A DNA stretch of 33,237 nt from Desulfobulbaceae bacterium. Lineage in GTDB: Bacteria > Desulfobacterota > Desulfobulbia > Desulfobulbales > Desulfobulbaceae. The position numbers and the translations under genes were made by a program. Location of the stretch: positions 1 through 33,237 of the forward strand of contig JABMJC010000013.1 of assembly GCA_013201405.1 (NCBI GenBank). Reading direction: 5' to 3'. Below the pieces are notes generated by a model. The model ran no database searches, was not told where the DNA came from, and saw nothing but the letters and a program-made list of their open reading frames with translations. Within the stretch, counting starts at the first letter, position 1. Every line of letters starts with the position of its first letter. Below are positions 13,622 through 21,979 of the stretch, piece by piece.

Positions 13622-15976
13622 CTATTTGTGCAGTACCCGTAGACCATTGGCGATCACCAACAGGGCAGCACCCACATCTGCAAGCACAGCCATCCACATG
13701 GTGGCGTGACCGCTGAAGGCAAGAGCAAAGAAAAGCGCCTTTATTCCCAGGGCAAAGCTGATGTTCTGCACCAGGATAGTATGGGTGGAACGGGACAACC
13801 GAATAAAACGCGGAATTTTAAGCAGATCGTCATCCATCAGGGCCACATCCGCGGTCTCGATGGCCGTATCCGTGCCGCCACCGGCCATGGCAAAACCAAT
13901 GTCTGCCCGCGCCAGGGCCGGAGCATCGTTGATGCCGTCGCCCACCATACCGACCACACCCTCTTTTCCCAGTTGCTCGATTATCTCAAGCTTGTCTGCT
14001 GGCAGGAGATTGGCCTGTAAGCCATCTACGCCCACCTGTTTGGCAATGGCCTGGGCTGCATGTTCGTTGTCGCCAGTGAGCATCATGGTGTGCACGCCAA
14101 GCCTCTTCAGCTCTTCAATGGCCTTGATGCTGCTCTTTTTCAGGGTATCGGCCACGGCAAACAGCGCCTGTACGCCCTGTTCCCCCACCAGGGCAACCAC
14201 GGTCTTGCCCATTTTCTCAAGGGCCACAGCCTGCTGCTTAAAAACATGCGAACCCTTGTTCAACTCTTCCACTATGCGGTAGTTGCCAAGAAACCACTTT
14301 TCATCATCAATTATCCCGCTCACCCCCCGGCCAGGAATAGCAGTAAATTCTGCAACCTCATGCAGCTGCACCCCTTTTTCCTGGGCAGCAGCGGCAATGG
14401 CCTTGGAAACCGGATGGTCGGAACGGGCCGCAATACTGCCGGCAAGGGCTGTTACTCTGTGTGGAGCAGATCCGCTTGCACAGAGCACCAAATCGGTCTG
14501 CTGCGGTCTACCGTGGGTGAGGGTGCCAGTCTTATCCAGTGCCAGCCGTGTTAGACGCCGCCCCTGTTCAAGGAACAGACCACCCTTGATCAGGATGCCA
14601 TGGCGCGTGGCCGCGGCCATACCACTGACAATGGTTACCGGTGTAGAAATAACCAGGGCGCAGGGGCAACCGATCACCAGGATGACCAGGGCAGTGTAGA
14701 TGGACTCGCTCCACAAAACGCCGAAAACAAGCGGCGGAAGGAGCGCGCTCAGCAGGGAGACCAAAAAAACCAACGGAGTGTAGTAGCTGGCAAAGCGGTC
14801 AATAAAGCGCTGCATGGGCGCCCGGCTCGCCTGGGCCTCCTCCACGGCATGGATGATGCGAGCCAAGGTAGACTCGGCCGCCAGGGCACTCACTGCAAAT
14901 TCAAAGGAACCAGATTCATTAAGGGTACCGGCATAGACCGCATCGCCTACACCCTTTTCCACGGGCATGCTTTCACCGGTAATGGCAGCCTGGTTGAGCG
15001 CAGATTGACCCTGCACAATCACGCCATCAAGCGCCACTTTTTCGCCGGGCCGCACCCGTACCCGACTGCCCACGGGCACCTGGCGGATATCCACTTCCAT
15101 CCAGGCGCCATCGGGCTGCAACACAGTTGCCTGTTCCGGTGCCCAAGCCAGCAGACTCTTGATGGCCTTGCGTGCTCTGTCCATGGCCTTGGCTTCAACG
15201 GCTTCCGACAGGTTGAACAGCACCATGACCATGGCTGCCTCGGGATATTGCCGAATGAATACCGCACCGGTCACTGCCACAGACATGAGCGCATTGATGT
15301 TCAGATTGCGATTACGGATGGCGAGCCAGCCCTTTTTGTAGGTGCTCAAACCACCTAGCCAAATCGCCACCAGTGCAAAGACAAGGGGCGCAAAAACCAC
15401 CGGAGCAAAACCGTTTATCTGCCAGCTCTCGAGATCCAGGCCAAAGGGGTGCAACTGCCAGGTGTGCAGCAGTTCAAAGGCCTCGGAAAGAAGTGCAAAG
15501 AAACCGGCAGCAAGCAACTTTTGCCAGGGAACCTGCGCCGCCGGCAGGACTCCGTCTTTTTCAGTTCCTGTCTTTACAAGGCGTGCGCCCATGTTCAGGG
15601 AATCAAGAGCCTTGCTGACACCAGATAACGCGGCAGGCTCGTATTGCACTTTCAGGATGCGCTGCATGAGGTTGAATTCCAGAGCAAGCACACCGGGCAT
15701 GCCTGCGAGCTTTTTGCGGATCAAGGCCTCTTCCACCGGGCAGTCCATCTCGGCAATGTGGTATATGGCGCAGTCAGCCGAGTCCTGCTTGTCATCGGCC
15801 AGTGCAAACGATTCAGCCGGTGTGACTGGGTCTGTTACTGGATGCCCGCAACCACAACTGCAGGATGAGAGCGATTTGGCAGCCTGCAGCAAGCTTTTCG
15901 CCTGGGTGCAGACAAAACCCTCGGGATGATCCACGCCGCAGGCGCATAGCTCAGAAGTCAAGGTAGAAGTGCCCAT
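13622..15976 (-). CDS. Zn/Cd/Pb-exporting P1B-type ATPase (ZntA/CadA-like)
   Basis: A 784-residue heavy-metal P-type ATPase. The N-terminus is cysteine-rich (C11, C13, C23 and C39, C41, C43), followed by an HMA domain whose metal motif is MDCPVEE instead of the two-cysteine form. Then come the TGES actuator loop (AAITGESMPVEKG), the membrane CPC metal site (VIGCPCALVIS), the phosphorylation site DKTGTLT, the SDHPVS motif and GDGINDAPALA. The CPC motif and the C-terminal membrane aspartate (AVLADVGAALL) point to the Zn/Cd/Pb subgroup rather than copper. ATG 15976 is chosen because GGAG lies six bases before it; an in-frame ATG at 16012 has no ribosome site. It is controlled by the divergent MerR-type regulator. 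Confidence 0.93.
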   Translation of the reverse strand: MGTSTLTSELCACGVDHPEGFVCTQAKSLLQAAKSLSSCSCGCGHPVTDPVTPAESFALADDKQDSADCAIYHIAEMDCPVEEALIRKKLAGMPGVLALEFNLMQRILKVQYEPAALSGVSKALDSLNMGARLVKTGTEKDGVLPAAQVPWQKLLAAGFFALLSEAFELLHTWQLHPFGLDLESWQINGFAPVVFAPLVFALVAIWLGGLSTYKKGWLAIRNRNLNINALMSVAVTGAVFIRQYPEAAMVMVLFNLSEAVEAKAMDRARKAIKSLLAWAPEQATVLQPDGAWMEVDIRQVPVGSRVRVRPGEKVALDGVIVQGQSALNQAAITGESMPVEKGVGDAVYAGTLNESGSFEFAVSALAAESTLARIIHAVEEAQASRAPMQRFIDRFASYYTPLVFLVSLLSALLPPLVFGVLWSESIYTALVILVIGCPCALVISTPVTIVSGMAAATRHGILIKGGLFLEQGRRLTRLALDKTGTLTHGRPQQTDLVLCASGSAPHRVTALAGSIAARSDHPVSKAIAAAAQEKGVQLHEVAEFTAIPGRGVSGIIDDEKWFLGNYRIVEELNKGSHVFKQQAVALEKMGKTVVALVGEQGVQALFAVADTLKKSSIKAIEELKRLGVHTMMLTGDNEHAAQAIAKQVGVDGLQANLLPADKLEIIEQLGKEGVVGMVGDGINDAPALARADIGFAMAGGGTDTAIETADVALMDDDLLKIPRFIRLSRSTHTILVQNISFALGIKALFFALAFSGHATMWMAVLADVGAALLVIANGLRVLHK

Positions 15977-16043
15977 TGCTTTCTCCGTGTACCCGTATAC
16001 GACACAACACATGGCAATATTGCCGCTTCGTTCTTACTGTTCA

Positions 16044-16160: not shown

Positions 16161-16598
16161 ATGAAAATTGGCGAACTTGCGAAAAAAACCGGATGTCAGG
16201 TGGTGACAATCAGGTACTATGAAAAGGAGGGATTACTGGCTGAACCCGAACGCACGGAGAGTAACTACCGTGTGTATGGTGAGGAGGATGTCGAACGGCT
16301 GCACTTCATTCGCCACTGCCGCCACCACGGCATGAAGCTCTCGGAAATCCGCGAACTTCTTGCCTTCAAGGACAATCCCAGAGCGGATTGTAGCTGGATC
16401 AACACCATGATCGAAGGCCATATTGCAGGCGTCAATGAGCAGATCGCCTCGCTCACCCACCTCAAGGGACACCTGGAAGGGCTGCTCAAAAAATGTTCGG
16501 GCAGCGCATCCAGCGGCTGCGGCATCTTGAAAAGTCTGCACGATGCCGCCTCCTGCCCCTACTGTGAGGATAGCCGCTGTGGTCTGCAGGGCGACTGA
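16161..16598 (+). CDS. MerR-family heavy-metal regulator (CadR/PbrR-like)
   Basis: A 145-residue regulator with the MerR winged helix-turn-helix at the N-terminus (MKIGELAKKTGCQVVTIRYY), a long dimer helix, and cysteines at 77, 112 and 120. These match the CadR/PbrR metal site (Cys77, Cys112, Cys119 in those proteins) with one residue shift. The C-terminus has an extra CPYCEDSRC cluster (C132, C135, C140) that may bind metal. It should sense Cd, Pb or Zn and activate the divergent ATPase gene through the 19-bp spacer promoter. The ATG at 16161 gives the canonical N-terminus. Confidence 0.92.
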   Translation: MKIGELAKKTGCQVVTIRYYEKEGLLAEPERTESNYRVYGEEDVERLHFIRHCRHHGMKLSEIRELLAFKDNPRADCSWINTMIEGHIAGVNEQIASLTHLKGHLEGLLKKCSGSASSGCGILKSLHDAASCPYCEDSRCGLQGD

Positions 16599-18039: not shown

Positions 18040-20214
18040 TCAACGCCGCTTCAGTTCCACCACCTCGGGTATTTGCTGCAAATGCTGCAAAATGAGCTGC
18101 AGATGCTTGAGATCACGCACCTCAAGTATCAATTCCAGCTCTGCCATGTTCTCTGCCGTGGTTCGGGCATTGAGTTCAACAATATCGGCATCATCGGCGC
18201 TGATACTGCTGCTAATGGCAGCCAAAAGACTCTTCTTGTTTTCTGCGCGAATAAACAGCCCGCTCTGGTAGTTTTGTTGTAGAGCTGCCGGCCACTGCAC
18301 ATCAACCCAACGGGCCGAGTTGGTGGCCAACAAATTGCGGCAGTCTGCCTTGTGAATGGAAATGCCGGAACCTGTACTGATAAAACCGATAATAGCGTCA
18401 CCAGGGATCGGGCGGCAGCAGCGGCTTACCTTCACGGGCATGCCCGTCATGCCGTCCAGATCGATGCTCCCGTGCAATGCTGTGCCCGGCTTACTTTCTA
18501 CCTGCCGTTGCGCGCGCTGCTGGAGCTCCTCTATCCGGCGCTGTTCCTCCAGGACAGCATAGCCTTCGGGCTGGAGTGTGCGCAGCAGAGTGGGCATGGT
18601 CAACGCCCCGGAACCGACCTTGATCAACATGTCATCAAGGGAGGTGCAGCGTAACTCCTTCAGCAAAAGGCGGAAATGACCACCTTTGACCAGGGATTGC
18701 AGACTGAAGCCATTTTTCTTCAGTTCCCGCTCGCATATCTCCCGGCCCAGTTTGAGGGAACGCTCGTTTTCCTCTTTGCGCAGATACTGGCGAATTCTGG
18801 TGCGAGCCCGTCCGGTTTTGACGATCTGCAGCCAGGCCCGCTTGGGATGCTGATTCTTTTGGGTGAGGATTTCAACGATATCGCCGTTTTGCAGTGTATG
18901 TTTCAGCTGTACGATCTGGCCATTGACCTTTGCCCCCACACAGGTATCACCCACATCCGAATGGATGGCATAGGCAAAATCAATCGGGGTACTGCCCTGG
19001 GGCAACTCCCGCACCTCGCCCCTAGGGGTCAGAACGAACACATCGGGTTCAAAGAGTTCGCTCTTCAACGACTCCATGAACTCGGTGGGGTCTTCCACCT
19101 CCTGCAGGGTCTGCACCATCTGTTTGATATCCCTGAAAAGACGAGCGTCGTTTTGGGAAACCTTCTGCCCTTCCTTGTAGGCCCAGTGGGCGGCAACCCC
19201 CTCCTGCGCCACCCGGTCCATCTCCTCGGTGCGAATCTGAATCTCAATAAAATGGCCGTGTGGCCCAGCCACCGTGGTGTGCAAAGACTGGTAGTTATTC
19301 GCCTTGGGCACACTGATGTAGTCCTTGATGCGTCCAGGCACCGGCGGCCAATCGGCATGCACAGTACCCAGGGCCTGATAGCATTCCCGTACCGTGCGCA
19401 CGATAATCCGAAAGGCTACCTTGTCGTAGACCTGGTCTACGGTGATTTTCTGGACAACGAGTTTTTTGTAAATGGAATAGAGGTGCTTGGGGCGACCAAC
19501 AATGCGCACCGGCACCACCTTGTTGGCCCTCAACTTGGTATAGAGGATGCCAATTACCTCGTCCACATACGCCTGCCGCTCACCCAGGGTACTGTCCATC
19601 TGGCGCGACAGGTTTTCGTATTCCACTGGGAAAAGATGGGAAAAGGACAGGTCTTCCAACTCCCGCTTGAGCCATTCGATGCCCACCCGGCCAGCCAGGG
19701 GCGCATACAGATCCATGGTTTCCCTGGCCTTGTAGCGACGTTCCTCCACCGCAGCATTGCCCAGACTCTGCATATCTTGCAAGCGATCCGCCAGCTTGAC
19801 CAAAAGCACCCGAATATCCGCTCCCATGGCCAGCATGTACTTGCGAATATTTTCGACCTGATTGGCCAGGCGGGAGCTGTAGCGCACATTGGTAATGCGG
19901 GTGACACCATTGACGATGTTGGCCACATCATCGCCAAAGAGTTTCTGCAATTCCTCAAGAGTAGCCACGCCCTCATTGAGTACCCCATGCAGAAGACCGG
20001 CAACAATGGTACCCAAATCCATTTTCATGGACACGAGCGAGGCAGCCACGTTCAGAGCGTGGTTGATGAACGGACCACCGTAATTATAGGATTTGCCGTT
20101 GTGGCGTTCGACTGCAAAAGCGCCTGCCTTTTCCAGCTGAGCAAGATCACTGTGTGGTAAATGCCCCCTGGCCAGAGTGTAGAGATGCTCTAGGGTGATC
20201 GTGCTATCGTGCAT
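18040..20214 (-). CDS. RelA/SpoT-family protein, synthetase intact, hydrolase site degenerate
   Basis: A 724-residue long RSH protein with HD-type hydrolase, synthetase, TGS (VFVLTPRGEVRELPQGSTPIDFAYAIH), helical, zinc-finger-like (VSRCCRPIPGDAIIGF) and C-terminal ACT domains. The synthetase has GRPKHLYSIYKK, an aspartate in VYDKVAFRIIV, YQSLHTTV and EIQIRT, so (p)ppGpp synthesis is expected. In the hydrolase, His52, His76 and Asp143 are kept, but the HD...ED motif reads LLHGVLNEG: Gly77, Asn80 and Glu81 stand where active Rel enzymes have Asp, Glu and Asp. It therefore probably acts as a RelA-like synthetase in the cytoplasm, ribosome-linked through its C-terminal half. GGGAG lies nine bases before the ATG. 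Confidence 0.92.
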   Translation of the reverse strand: MHDSTITLEHLYTLARGHLPHSDLAQLEKAGAFAVERHNGKSYNYGGPFINHALNVAASLVSMKMDLGTIVAGLLHGVLNEGVATLEELQKLFGDDVANIVNGVTRITNVRYSSRLANQVENIRKYMLAMGADIRVLLVKLADRLQDMQSLGNAAVEERRYKARETMDLYAPLAGRVGIEWLKRELEDLSFSHLFPVEYENLSRQMDSTLGERQAYVDEVIGILYTKLRANKVVPVRIVGRPKHLYSIYKKLVVQKITVDQVYDKVAFRIIVRTVRECYQALGTVHADWPPVPGRIKDYISVPKANNYQSLHTTVAGPHGHFIEIQIRTEEMDRVAQEGVAAHWAYKEGQKVSQNDARLFRDIKQMVQTLQEVEDPTEFMESLKSELFEPDVFVLTPRGEVRELPQGSTPIDFAYAIHSDVGDTCVGAKVNGQIVQLKHTLQNGDIVEILTQKNQHPKRAWLQIVKTGRARTRIRQYLRKEENERSLKLGREICERELKKNGFSLQSLVKGGHFRLLLKELRCTSLDDMLIKVGSGALTMPTLLRTLQPEGYAVLEEQRRIEELQQRAQRQVESKPGTALHGSIDLDGMTGMPVKVSRCCRPIPGDAIIGFISTGSGISIHKADCRNLLATNSARWVDVQWPAALQQNYQSGLFIRAENKKSLLAAISSSISADDADIVELNARTTAENMAELELILEVRDLKHLQLILQHLQQIPEVVELKRR

Positions 20215-20257: not shown

Positions 20258-21979
20258 TTACAGGGCAGCAAACGCGCTGGCGATGCGCGCCTGCACCGCC
20301 GCCGCAGTCTCTGCCAGCAGCAGGGAAGACGTCGCACCACTACGGCGCTCCCGCAGTTCGACCTCACCCTTTTGCTTGAACGTTCTTCCCAAGGTAAGGC
20401 GGTATGGAATGCCCAGCAGGTCGGCATCGTTGAATTTGGAACCAGGCCGCTCGTCGCGGTCATCATAGAGCACCTCCACCCCTGCTGTCTGCAATTCCTG
20501 GTAGAGACTGTCGGCTGCCCTGGTGAGTTCCTCGTCATTGGGCCCGAGATTGAGCAGAATCACCTGGAATGGAGCAATTGGCAGCGGGAAGATGATGCCG
20601 TTTTCATCGTAGTTCTGCTCAATGGCCGCAGCCACGATCCGGCTAACACCAATACCGTAGCAGCCCATGATCAAGGGTTGTTCCTGTCCATCACTGTCCT
20701 GGAAGGTGGCTTCCATGGCCTCGGAATACTTGGTGCCCAGCTTGAAAATATGGCCAACTTCAATGCCTTCTTTGAAGTAGAGGGAACCACCACAGGCCGG
20801 GCAGCTGTCATCCTCGGCAATTTCCCGCAAATCTCCGCTGATCTGCACACTGAAATCACGTTCCGGATTGACCCCCTGGTAGTGGCTGCCCTTTTCATTG
20901 GCACCGGCCACAGCATTGCGCATGGCCAGCACCTCATGGTCTGCCACAACCCGAAGCGGCAGGTTTACCGGGCCAATATAGCCCATTGGCAAGCGCAGGG
21001 CCGCCCAAATCTGGTCTTCGGTGAGGATCTGCACTTCTGTCGCGCCAAGCAGATTCTTGAGTTTGACCGTCTGTACCTCGCGGTCGCCCCGTACCAGTGC
21101 AGCCACAATCTCTTCATCCGCCAGGTAGATCATGGTCTTGATGACCTGTTGCGGGCTGACCTGTAAAAATTCTGCCACGCTCTTCACCCGTTTTTGACCA
21201 GGAGTTTCCACCTTGCGCAGCTCTTCCAAACTCTGCGTGGCAACAGGGCTTTGGGCCGGCGCCTTGACCACTGCCTTTTCCACGTTGGCAGCGTAACTGC
21301 AGTCATGACAGAGTACCAGCGTATCTTCGCCAGTTTCGGCCAAGACCATGAACTCGTGCGAGTAGGAGCCACCAATGCTACCGCTGTCTGCCTCCACCAT
21401 ACGGAAATCCAGACCACAACGAGTAAAGATACGGTCATAGGCAGCGCGCATGCGCTCGTAGCTCTGGGCGGCACCTTCGTCGTCGGCGTCAAAGGAGTAG
21501 GCGTCTTTCATAACAAACTCGCGACCACGCATCAGCCCGAAACGTGGACGAATTTCGTCACGATACTTGGTTTGAATCTGGTACAGGTTCATCGGCAGCT
21601 GCCGATAGGATTGCAATTCGCGGCGGGCGATATCCGTGACCACCTCCTCGTGGGTAGGACCAAGACAGCAATCCCGCTCGTTGCGGTCGCGAAAGCGAAG
21701 CAGCTCCGGGCCATAGTGTTGCCAGCGGCCCGATTCCATCCACAGATCTCCGGGCTGCACCATGGGCATGAGTATTTCCTGGGCCCCGGCTCGGTTCATC
21801 TCCTCCCGCACAATAGCACTCACCTTTTGCAAGGTCAGCAGCCCCAGGGGTAGAAAGGTGTAAACGCCAGCACTGAGTTTGCGGATAAAACCGCCGCGCA
21901 GCAGCAACTGGTGGCTAATCACCTCGGCTTCGGCTGGGGTTTCCCTGGTGGTGGGCAACAACATCTGTGAATAGCGCAT
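20258..21979 (-). CDS. proS: Prolyl-tRNA synthetase
   Basis: A 573-residue bacterial-type (class IIa) enzyme that charges tRNA-Pro. N-terminal motifs MRYSQMLLPTTRETPAEAE and GGFIRKLSAGVYTFLPLG are typical; motif 2 is seen around CCLGPTHEE and motif 3 around GCYGIGVSRIVAAAIEQ. Between them, about residues 220-400, lies the INS (YbaK-like) editing domain that clears Ala-tRNA-Pro. The length matches the family. GGGAG lies six bases upstream of the ATG. It lies 20 bases after ispG and 43 bases before the RSH gene. Confidence 0.96.
   Translation of the reverse strand: MRYSQMLLPTTRETPAEAEVISHQLLLRGGFIRKLSAGVYTFLPLGLLTLQKVSAIVREEMNRAGAQEILMPMVQPGDLWMESGRWQHYGPELLRFRDRNERDCCLGPTHEEVVTDIARRELQSYRQLPMNLYQIQTKYRDEIRPRFGLMRGREFVMKDAYSFDADDEGAAQSYERMRAAYDRIFTRCGLDFRMVEADSGSIGGSYSHEFMVLAETGEDTLVLCHDCSYAANVEKAVVKAPAQSPVATQSLEELRKVETPGQKRVKSVAEFLQVSPQQVIKTMIYLADEEIVAALVRGDREVQTVKLKNLLGATEVQILTEDQIWAALRLPMGYIGPVNLPLRVVADHEVLAMRNAVAGANEKGSHYQGVNPERDFSVQISGDLREIAEDDSCPACGGSLYFKEGIEVGHIFKLGTKYSEAMEATFQDSDGQEQPLIMGCYGIGVSRIVAAAIEQNYDENGIIFPLPIAPFQVILLNLGPNDEELTRAADSLYQELQTAGVEVLYDDRDERPGSKFNDADLLGIPYRLTLGRTFKQKGEVELRERRSGATSSLLLAETAAAVQARIASAFAAL

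Follow-up and report, generated by a model that had tools for sequence, protein, structure and literature searches.

In a Desulfobulbaceae genome, the two reactions of (p)ppGpp metabolism appear to be divided in trans between two long RelA/SpoT homologues (RSH): the protein encoded in the window (RSH1) would have kept synthesis and lost hydrolysis, and a second protein (RSH2) would have done the reverse. The window is the whole stretch of DNA that was analysed, 33,237 nucleotides long. We put the probability of this reading at about 0.87. It is built on residues, gene pairing, distribution and gene trees, from which we infer the activities, the ribosome control and the order of events. RSH enzymes normally both make and destroy (p)ppGpp, and the most familiar case in which two proteins share these functions is that of E. 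coli and related bacteria. The Desulfobulbales are an order of sediment bacteria that take part in the sulfur cycle.

RSH1 is a 724-aa protein encoded on the minus strand (18040-20214), predicted from TIGR00691, Pfam and residue tables to be synthetase-only ([hS]). It scored 698.3 bits against TIGR00691, above the curated cut-off of 499.2, and matched the Pfam models HD_4, RelA_SpoT, TGS, AH_RIS and ACT_4. The HD_4 domain (19678-20124, minus strand; PF13328, E = 4.9e-43 in the genome search) has a dead-looking hydrolase site with replaced catalytic residues. In the RelA_SpoT synthetase domain (19165-19497, minus strand; PF04607, E = 1.2e-40) the checked catalytic residues were intact, and translation and motif count showed R-I-K-D at 19321-19332 (minus strand) to be an RXKD motif of the Rel/SpoT type. 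Three further regions follow on the same strand: a TGS domain (18862-19041) with a His equivalent to H432 of E. coli RelA, an alpha-helical and RIS (CC) region (18328-18828; PF19296) in which the CC pair is kept, and a C-terminal ACT domain (18046-18279; PF13291). RSH1 is preceded by ispG and proS, which share its strand. The proS gene (20258-21979, minus strand) lies directly upstream with 43 bases between, and was found in 47 of the 49 family RSH1 loci examined. Further upstream are a TsaD-like gene, an M50 peptidase gene, dxr, a cytidylyltransferase gene and rpsB. Elsewhere in the window, a P-type ATPase gene (13622-16012, minus strand) stands beside a divergent MerR-family regulator gene (16161-16598, plus strand), as in metal-efflux loci.

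The hydrolase site of RSH1 was compared with that of B. subtilis Rel. The minus strand at 19972-19989, CATGGGGTACTCAATGAG, encodes H-G-V-L-N-E as RSH1 residues 76-81, exactly where the first-pass annotation had placed it, instead of H-D-x-x-E-D. The alignment confirmed the replacements that had been proposed there (D78G, E81N and D82E) and the retention of H53, H77 and D144, which we take to be metal ligands in Rel. Three more pocket changes, beyond those of the annotation, were found on the minus strand: R44Y at the guanine-stacking residue (20086-20088), Y50F (20068-20070; read in the translation and from column counts) and N148D (19774-19776). Catalytic positions are numbered as in B. subtilis Rel, by alignment, and this numbering is consistent with its D264, a change of which makes that enzyme synthesis-defective (PMC7058999; this and the other papers are cited for those parts of them that were available to us). 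In A. baumannii SpoT, substituting the equivalents of R44, Y50, E81, D82 or N148 abolishes hydrolysis; these include the guanine-stacking R45, and Y51 and N147, whose substitution left the enzyme hydrolase-inactive (PMC9974481). The equivalents were assigned by motif and spacing, not by alignment. RSH1 departs from all five, and from D78 of the HD pair as well. Y50F and D82E are mild and may not be equivalent to the changes made in A. baumannii SpoT, so we infer the loss of (p)ppGpp hydrolysis by RSH1, though on strong grounds. The synthetase had been described as in place, and the catalytic columns checked bore this out, all being intact. Of the synthetase residues checked, only position 250 differs, with Lys instead of Arg; of the 50 family rows in which this position could be read, 45 have the same change.

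Changes at this site recur throughout the order. At D78, the family RSH1 proteins have Gly in 47 and Ala in 2 of the 49 rows with a letter, and those of all Desulfobulbales have Gly in 58 and Ala in 2 of 60. Chance, a misread base or a shifted frame was therefore rejected as the source of the motif in the window, as the D78 change is present in every one of the 60 rows. N148 is Asp in 58/60 rows, RXKD is found in 60/60, and H53, H77 and D144 are kept in 60/60, 59/60 and 59/60, respectively. The motif reads H-G-x-x-K-E (HGKE) in 45 of the 60 rows, and the HGNE form of the window occurs in 4. Within the family, G78, E82 and D148 vary less than the median hydrolase-domain column and K81 somewhat more. 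The HGKE site is therefore conserved and not freely drifting, which suggests that the dead site of RSH1 keeps a structural or regulatory role. One row (L006, from G009 of family f1) is a piece of an ordinary Rel whose site is intact; it is outside the 60 rows and was discounted as a companion. Partial RSH1 rows (L014, L027) and partial Rel rows (L213, L228, L327) were left out of the counts.

The first-pass annotation had reasoned that such an enzyme needs a separate hydrolase elsewhere in the genome, and one was found: a second long RSH whose hydrolase is intact and whose synthetase residues are broken. The genome is 2.46 Mb long, is listed as 99.99% complete and has only two PF04607 matches, RSH1 and RSH2. 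RSH2 is a 701-aa long RSH on another contig of the assembly (G000 contig C179; L002:703-2808). Aligned to B. subtilis Rel, it has the full set of hydrolase residues, and its synthetase differs at S247, K251, D264, R269, K297, N306, S310, E324, Q326 and H343, with Ser at D264 in the window genome. Across the family, the hydrolase residues were intact in 41/41 RSH2 proteins, and S247, K251, D264, R269, E324 and H343 were lost or unaligned. RSH2 scored 373.7 against TIGR00691, below the cut-off of 499.2. In the Pfam search of RSH2, PF13328, PF02824 and PF04607 exceeded their cut-offs, PF19296 fell short of its own, and no match to an ACT model appeared. The median entropy of the HD columns in the family was 0.17 in RSH2 versus 0.58 in RSH1. 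The TGS His and the CC pair were kept in all 33 type I companions examined, the class to which RSH2 belongs (see below). Among the best 80 of 255 RSH2 relatives, the titles were mostly those of Desulfobulbaceae, Desulfobulbus, Desulfocapsa and kin. An RNase R gene adjoins RSH2 in Desulfobulbus elongatus (L098:3633-5828, minus strand), and an RNase R match was present in the flanks of 75 of 80 RSH2 loci and of 41/41 loci longer than 12 kb. The window genome also encodes a third HD protein of 149 aa (L005:1483-1932, plus strand, G000:C55), which resembles small alarmone hydrolases and contains LHDVVEDS. Its nearest PDB structure is the (p)ppApp hydrolase 7smg (E = 1.6e-27), and it could share hydrolysis with RSH2.

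The pairing of RSH1 with RSH2 was then consistent wherever both could be read. HD_4 matches were present in 71 of 73 family genomes, usually as two long ones. Among family genomes at least 90% complete, one was listed with RSH1 only (G022), two with RSH2 only (G055, G071) and one (G011) with no HD_4 match in the family genome search; most family genomes without both copies are incomplete assemblies. In 51/51 Desulfobulbales genomes with both copies read, the two proteins were complementary. The same held for 11/11 genomes reached via named records, which partly overlap the 51 and include Desulfobulbus elongatus DSM 2908, Desulfogranum japonicum DSM 18378, Dg. marinum DSM 2058 and Desulfopila aestuarii DSM 18488. 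In the phylum sample of genomes at least 90% complete, all 19 genomes of the order had two matches, one of them RSH2. Contamination or an isolated paralogue was ruled out by this order-wide occurrence of the pair.

Could RSH1 still be bifunctional, with residual or altered hydrolysis at a remodelled H-G-x-x-K-E site? The replaced motif is conserved, not random, and the three retained residues H53, H77 and D144 are nearly invariant, both of which speak for this reading. On the other hand, RSH1 changes D78, the E-D pair and N148 together, and the equivalents of E81, D82 and N148 are each needed in A. baumannii SpoT (PMC9974481). In predicted structures the motif helix stops at residue 74 in RSH1 and runs through residues 70-84 in RSH2, but these models were given little weight because their pTM values were 0.40 and 0.46. 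Taken together, we consider continued hydrolysis by RSH1 unlikely. The opposite possibility concerns the partner: RSH2 might be a decayed or repurposed paralogue, the true hydrolase being the 149-aa HD protein or another enzyme. The low TIGR00691 score of RSH2 and the motif and structural match of the 149-aa protein would fit. However, hydrolase residues that are invariant across the family and an HD entropy well under that of RSH1 are not what decay produces, RSH2 is found in every order genome of the phylum sample at least 90% complete, and a third HD_4 match is listed in only a minority of family genomes. This leaves a decayed RSH2 very improbable.

The pair could also be the RelA and SpoT of beta/gamma-proteobacteria, gained by horizontal transfer, for the division of labour between RSH1 and RSH2 is the same as that between RelA and SpoT. 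Against this, RSH1 has RXKD, not EXDD, and in a quick tree with one RelA, on a long branch, and one SpoT it grouped with Desulfobacterota Rel and not with E. coli RelA, while RSH2 formed a clade of its own apart from E. coli SpoT. Such a transfer can hardly be credited. These results also bear on the suggestion of the first-pass annotation that RSH1 may be a lineage-specific RelA-like split: the pair is lineage-wide, and "RelA-like" fits the way in which RSH1 should work, not its descent.

The distribution of such companions outside the order was studied by searching 394 phylum genomes with the RSH2 profile (A1) and reading the residues. Across Desulfobacterota, three kinds of hydrolase-only companion were found. 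Type I is full length and occurs in Desulfobulbales and in families f70, f87, f106 and f37; type II, of about 685-720 aa, occurs in f45, f21, f92 and f78; type III, of about 465 aa with most of the C-terminal region absent, occurs in f60, f79, f96 and f103. Apart from L006, the 97 companion rows represent 85 distinct genes in 85 genomes, and all 85 carry the nine hydrolase residues counted. The partner Rel was identified by its kept synthetase residues, and its hydrolase core was substituted in 79 of the 83 genomes in which a companion was read. The other four genomes, one each of f106, f96, f103 and f78, have a companion with an intact Rel core and are possible intermediates. In part of f70 and f87 the Rel carries D82E or E81D alone, which might leave some hydrolysis; the case for hydrolase loss is far stronger in Desulfobulbales than in these two families.

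In contrast to the companion genomes, the Rel core was intact in 82/82 control genomes from 50 families. In companion-less families all nine hydrolase positions were intact in 91/91 Rel rows, which are 89 genes in 87 genomes. The annotation had asked whether Gly, Asn and Glu occur widely among the clade's active hydrolases; they do not, D78, E81 and D82 being present in these 91 rows and in all 85 companions. The controls take in a selection of the single-copy genomes. They came from better-scoring single-match genomes (40 regions), from low- or no-score genomes (48 entries, of which 11 had no match and two repeated companion genomes already known) and from genomes with a second match. Six fragments (L322, L323, L325, L327, L338, L339) were left out of the controls or the paired test. 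When the 24 genomes with a second match were searched again, most second matches proved to be another piece of the same Rel.

Several genomes of the phylum differ from this pattern in their own ways. Second RSHs of 392-504 aa stand beside an intact bifunctional Rel in four of the controls, G124, G312, G344 and G455 (L439, L440, L441 and L442). Their synthetase looks intact, an intact hydrolase site is missing, and the RXKD/EXDD position holds Asp-Asp; by these residues they are synthetase-only, the opposite of the companions. A second long RSH on a long branch (L301; G345, family f34) has both sites intact, as does a second RSH of 450 aa in G410. Control genomes G101, G362 and G440 also have a small HD protein, the frames being 196-241 aa long. 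One candidate for a further broken Rel, in G103 (L207, G103:C261), was dropped because its frame is broken in two, with the hydrolase part in 264 aa and the synthetase and C-terminal part in a 691-aa frame; a sequencing error, a pseudogene or a real split are all possible. In 11 of the 48 low- or no-score genomes (G098, G116, G118, G193, G213, G274, G296, G373, G390, G419 and G432), several of them listed as near 100% complete, no HD_4 match was found at 1e-10, possibly through loss of the long RSH or an assembly gap.

In a careful Rel tree, Desulfobulbales, f70/f87/f37, the type II partners and the type III partners each fell on one side of a branch, and intact single-copy Rel proteins lay between these groups. 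The Desulfobulbales RSH1 clade grouped with the intact Rel of f28, f64, f61 and f104 (99/97). The intact Rel of f96 stood beside the decayed one of f60 (88/84, not starred), and the intact Rel of f103 beside the decayed one of f79 (91/49, not starred). This arrangement suggests several decays after the companion had arrived. Against it, a single decay shared by Desulfobulbales and f70/f87/f37 was not rejected by the AU test (p 0.164). The paired sign test of companion against decay had only 4-5 independent pairs, of which about 3 agreed and none opposed (median p 0.25). The four companion genomes with an intact Rel core suggest that the companion came first, and it is likely that a hydrolase-only companion was present before the Rel hydrolase decayed. 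In the quick tree, the companions themselves fell into three clades, and one branch (96) placed all three on the same side; this grouping could reflect one ancient origin or long-branch attraction.

A mechanism can be proposed from these observations. RSH1 would be a long RSH of the ribosome type that still makes (p)ppGpp and no longer degrades it, and starved ribosomes would switch it on by way of its TGS, helical, CC and ACT regions, all of which are intact. RSH2 would retain hydrolysis without synthesis and act as the main brake, needed for viability while RSH1 is active. Together the two would perform in trans what one bifunctional Rel does. Because the TGS His and the CC pair are kept, the RSH2 hydrolase may answer to tRNA or ribosomes, in which it would differ from the hydrolase-only Acinetobacter SpoT. 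In evolution, the companion would have come first and the decay of the Rel hydrolase site would have followed. A more ambitious combination of these ideas is tentative, and we doubt that all its parts hold at once: Desulfobacterota would have split Rel several times, companion first, with intermediates still living; the HGKE site would be under selection, its Lys perhaps replacing Mn2+ and holding the domain ready for synthesis; and the partner hydrolase would still be gated by tRNA or ribosomes, so that one starvation signal may turn synthesis on and hydrolysis off in separate proteins.

If the division is real, a complementary split has arisen in a different phylum; each of the two proteins carries a pseudo-domain, and some lineages appear to be half-way. 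Such natural replicates bear on why the enzyme divides, why dead domains stay and whether synthetase-only life needs EXDD. Moreover, in an order of sulfur-cycling bacteria these Rel genes are probably mislabelled when they are described as bifunctional. No account of the Desulfobulbales split was found among the open-licence papers listed, preprints excluded, as judged by titles and abstract openings.

Among known systems, bifunctional Rel[HS] is the parent family of RSH1, which is alike in its synthetase and C-terminal region and differs in the lost hydrolase site. Desulfotalea psychrophila, which we take to be a member of the Desulfobulbales, is one of the species treated in earlier work. 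In Atkinson 2011, Rel was listed as bifunctional, delta-proteobacteria included, and a second long RSH in four delta-proteobacteria, D. psychrophila among them, was named RshD[HS] (PMC3153485). Type I RSH2 is probably this RshD, judging by taxonomy. However, the available parts of that paper list RshD as [HS], do not describe it as hydrolase-only and do not describe its partner Rel as hydrolase-dead; there, complete subfunctionalisation is described only for Moraxellaceae (PMC3153485), and the available parts of two key papers treat the division into RelA and SpoT as something that took place in beta/gamma-proteobacteria (PMC3153485, PMC9974481).

With E. coli RelA[hS], RSH1 shares the long RSH form, a dead-looking hydrolase site, an intact synthetase, a full C-terminal region and a second RSH that would hydrolyse. 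In contrast, E. coli RelA has EFDD and RSH1 has RXKD (RIKD in the window) without the acidic EXDD, and the alignment shows that H53, H77 and D144, all absent from E. coli RelA, are kept in RSH1. From its RXKD motif and its place among Desulfobacterota Rel, RSH1 is expected to function as RelA does while being of different descent. D264 of RSH2 presumably corresponds to the synthetase Asp that is replaced by Ser in A. baumannii SpoT. EXDD and RXKD have been tied to GDP and GTP preference, respectively, in work cited by Atkinson 2011 (PMC3153485). By its residues, RSH2 resembles the Moraxellaceae SpoT[Hs] of A. baumannii, also a long RSH with an active-type hydrolase and a pseudo-synthetase, in which the catalytic synthetase Asp is Ser (PMC9974481). 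A. baumannii SpoT has lost the TGS His that reads the tRNA CCA and is described as not regulated by tRNA or ribosomes (PMC9974481), whereas RSH2 keeps this His. RSH2 also differs from Moraxellaceae SpoT[Hs] in standing apart from E. coli SpoT and in having as its partner a derivative of Rel, not RelA.
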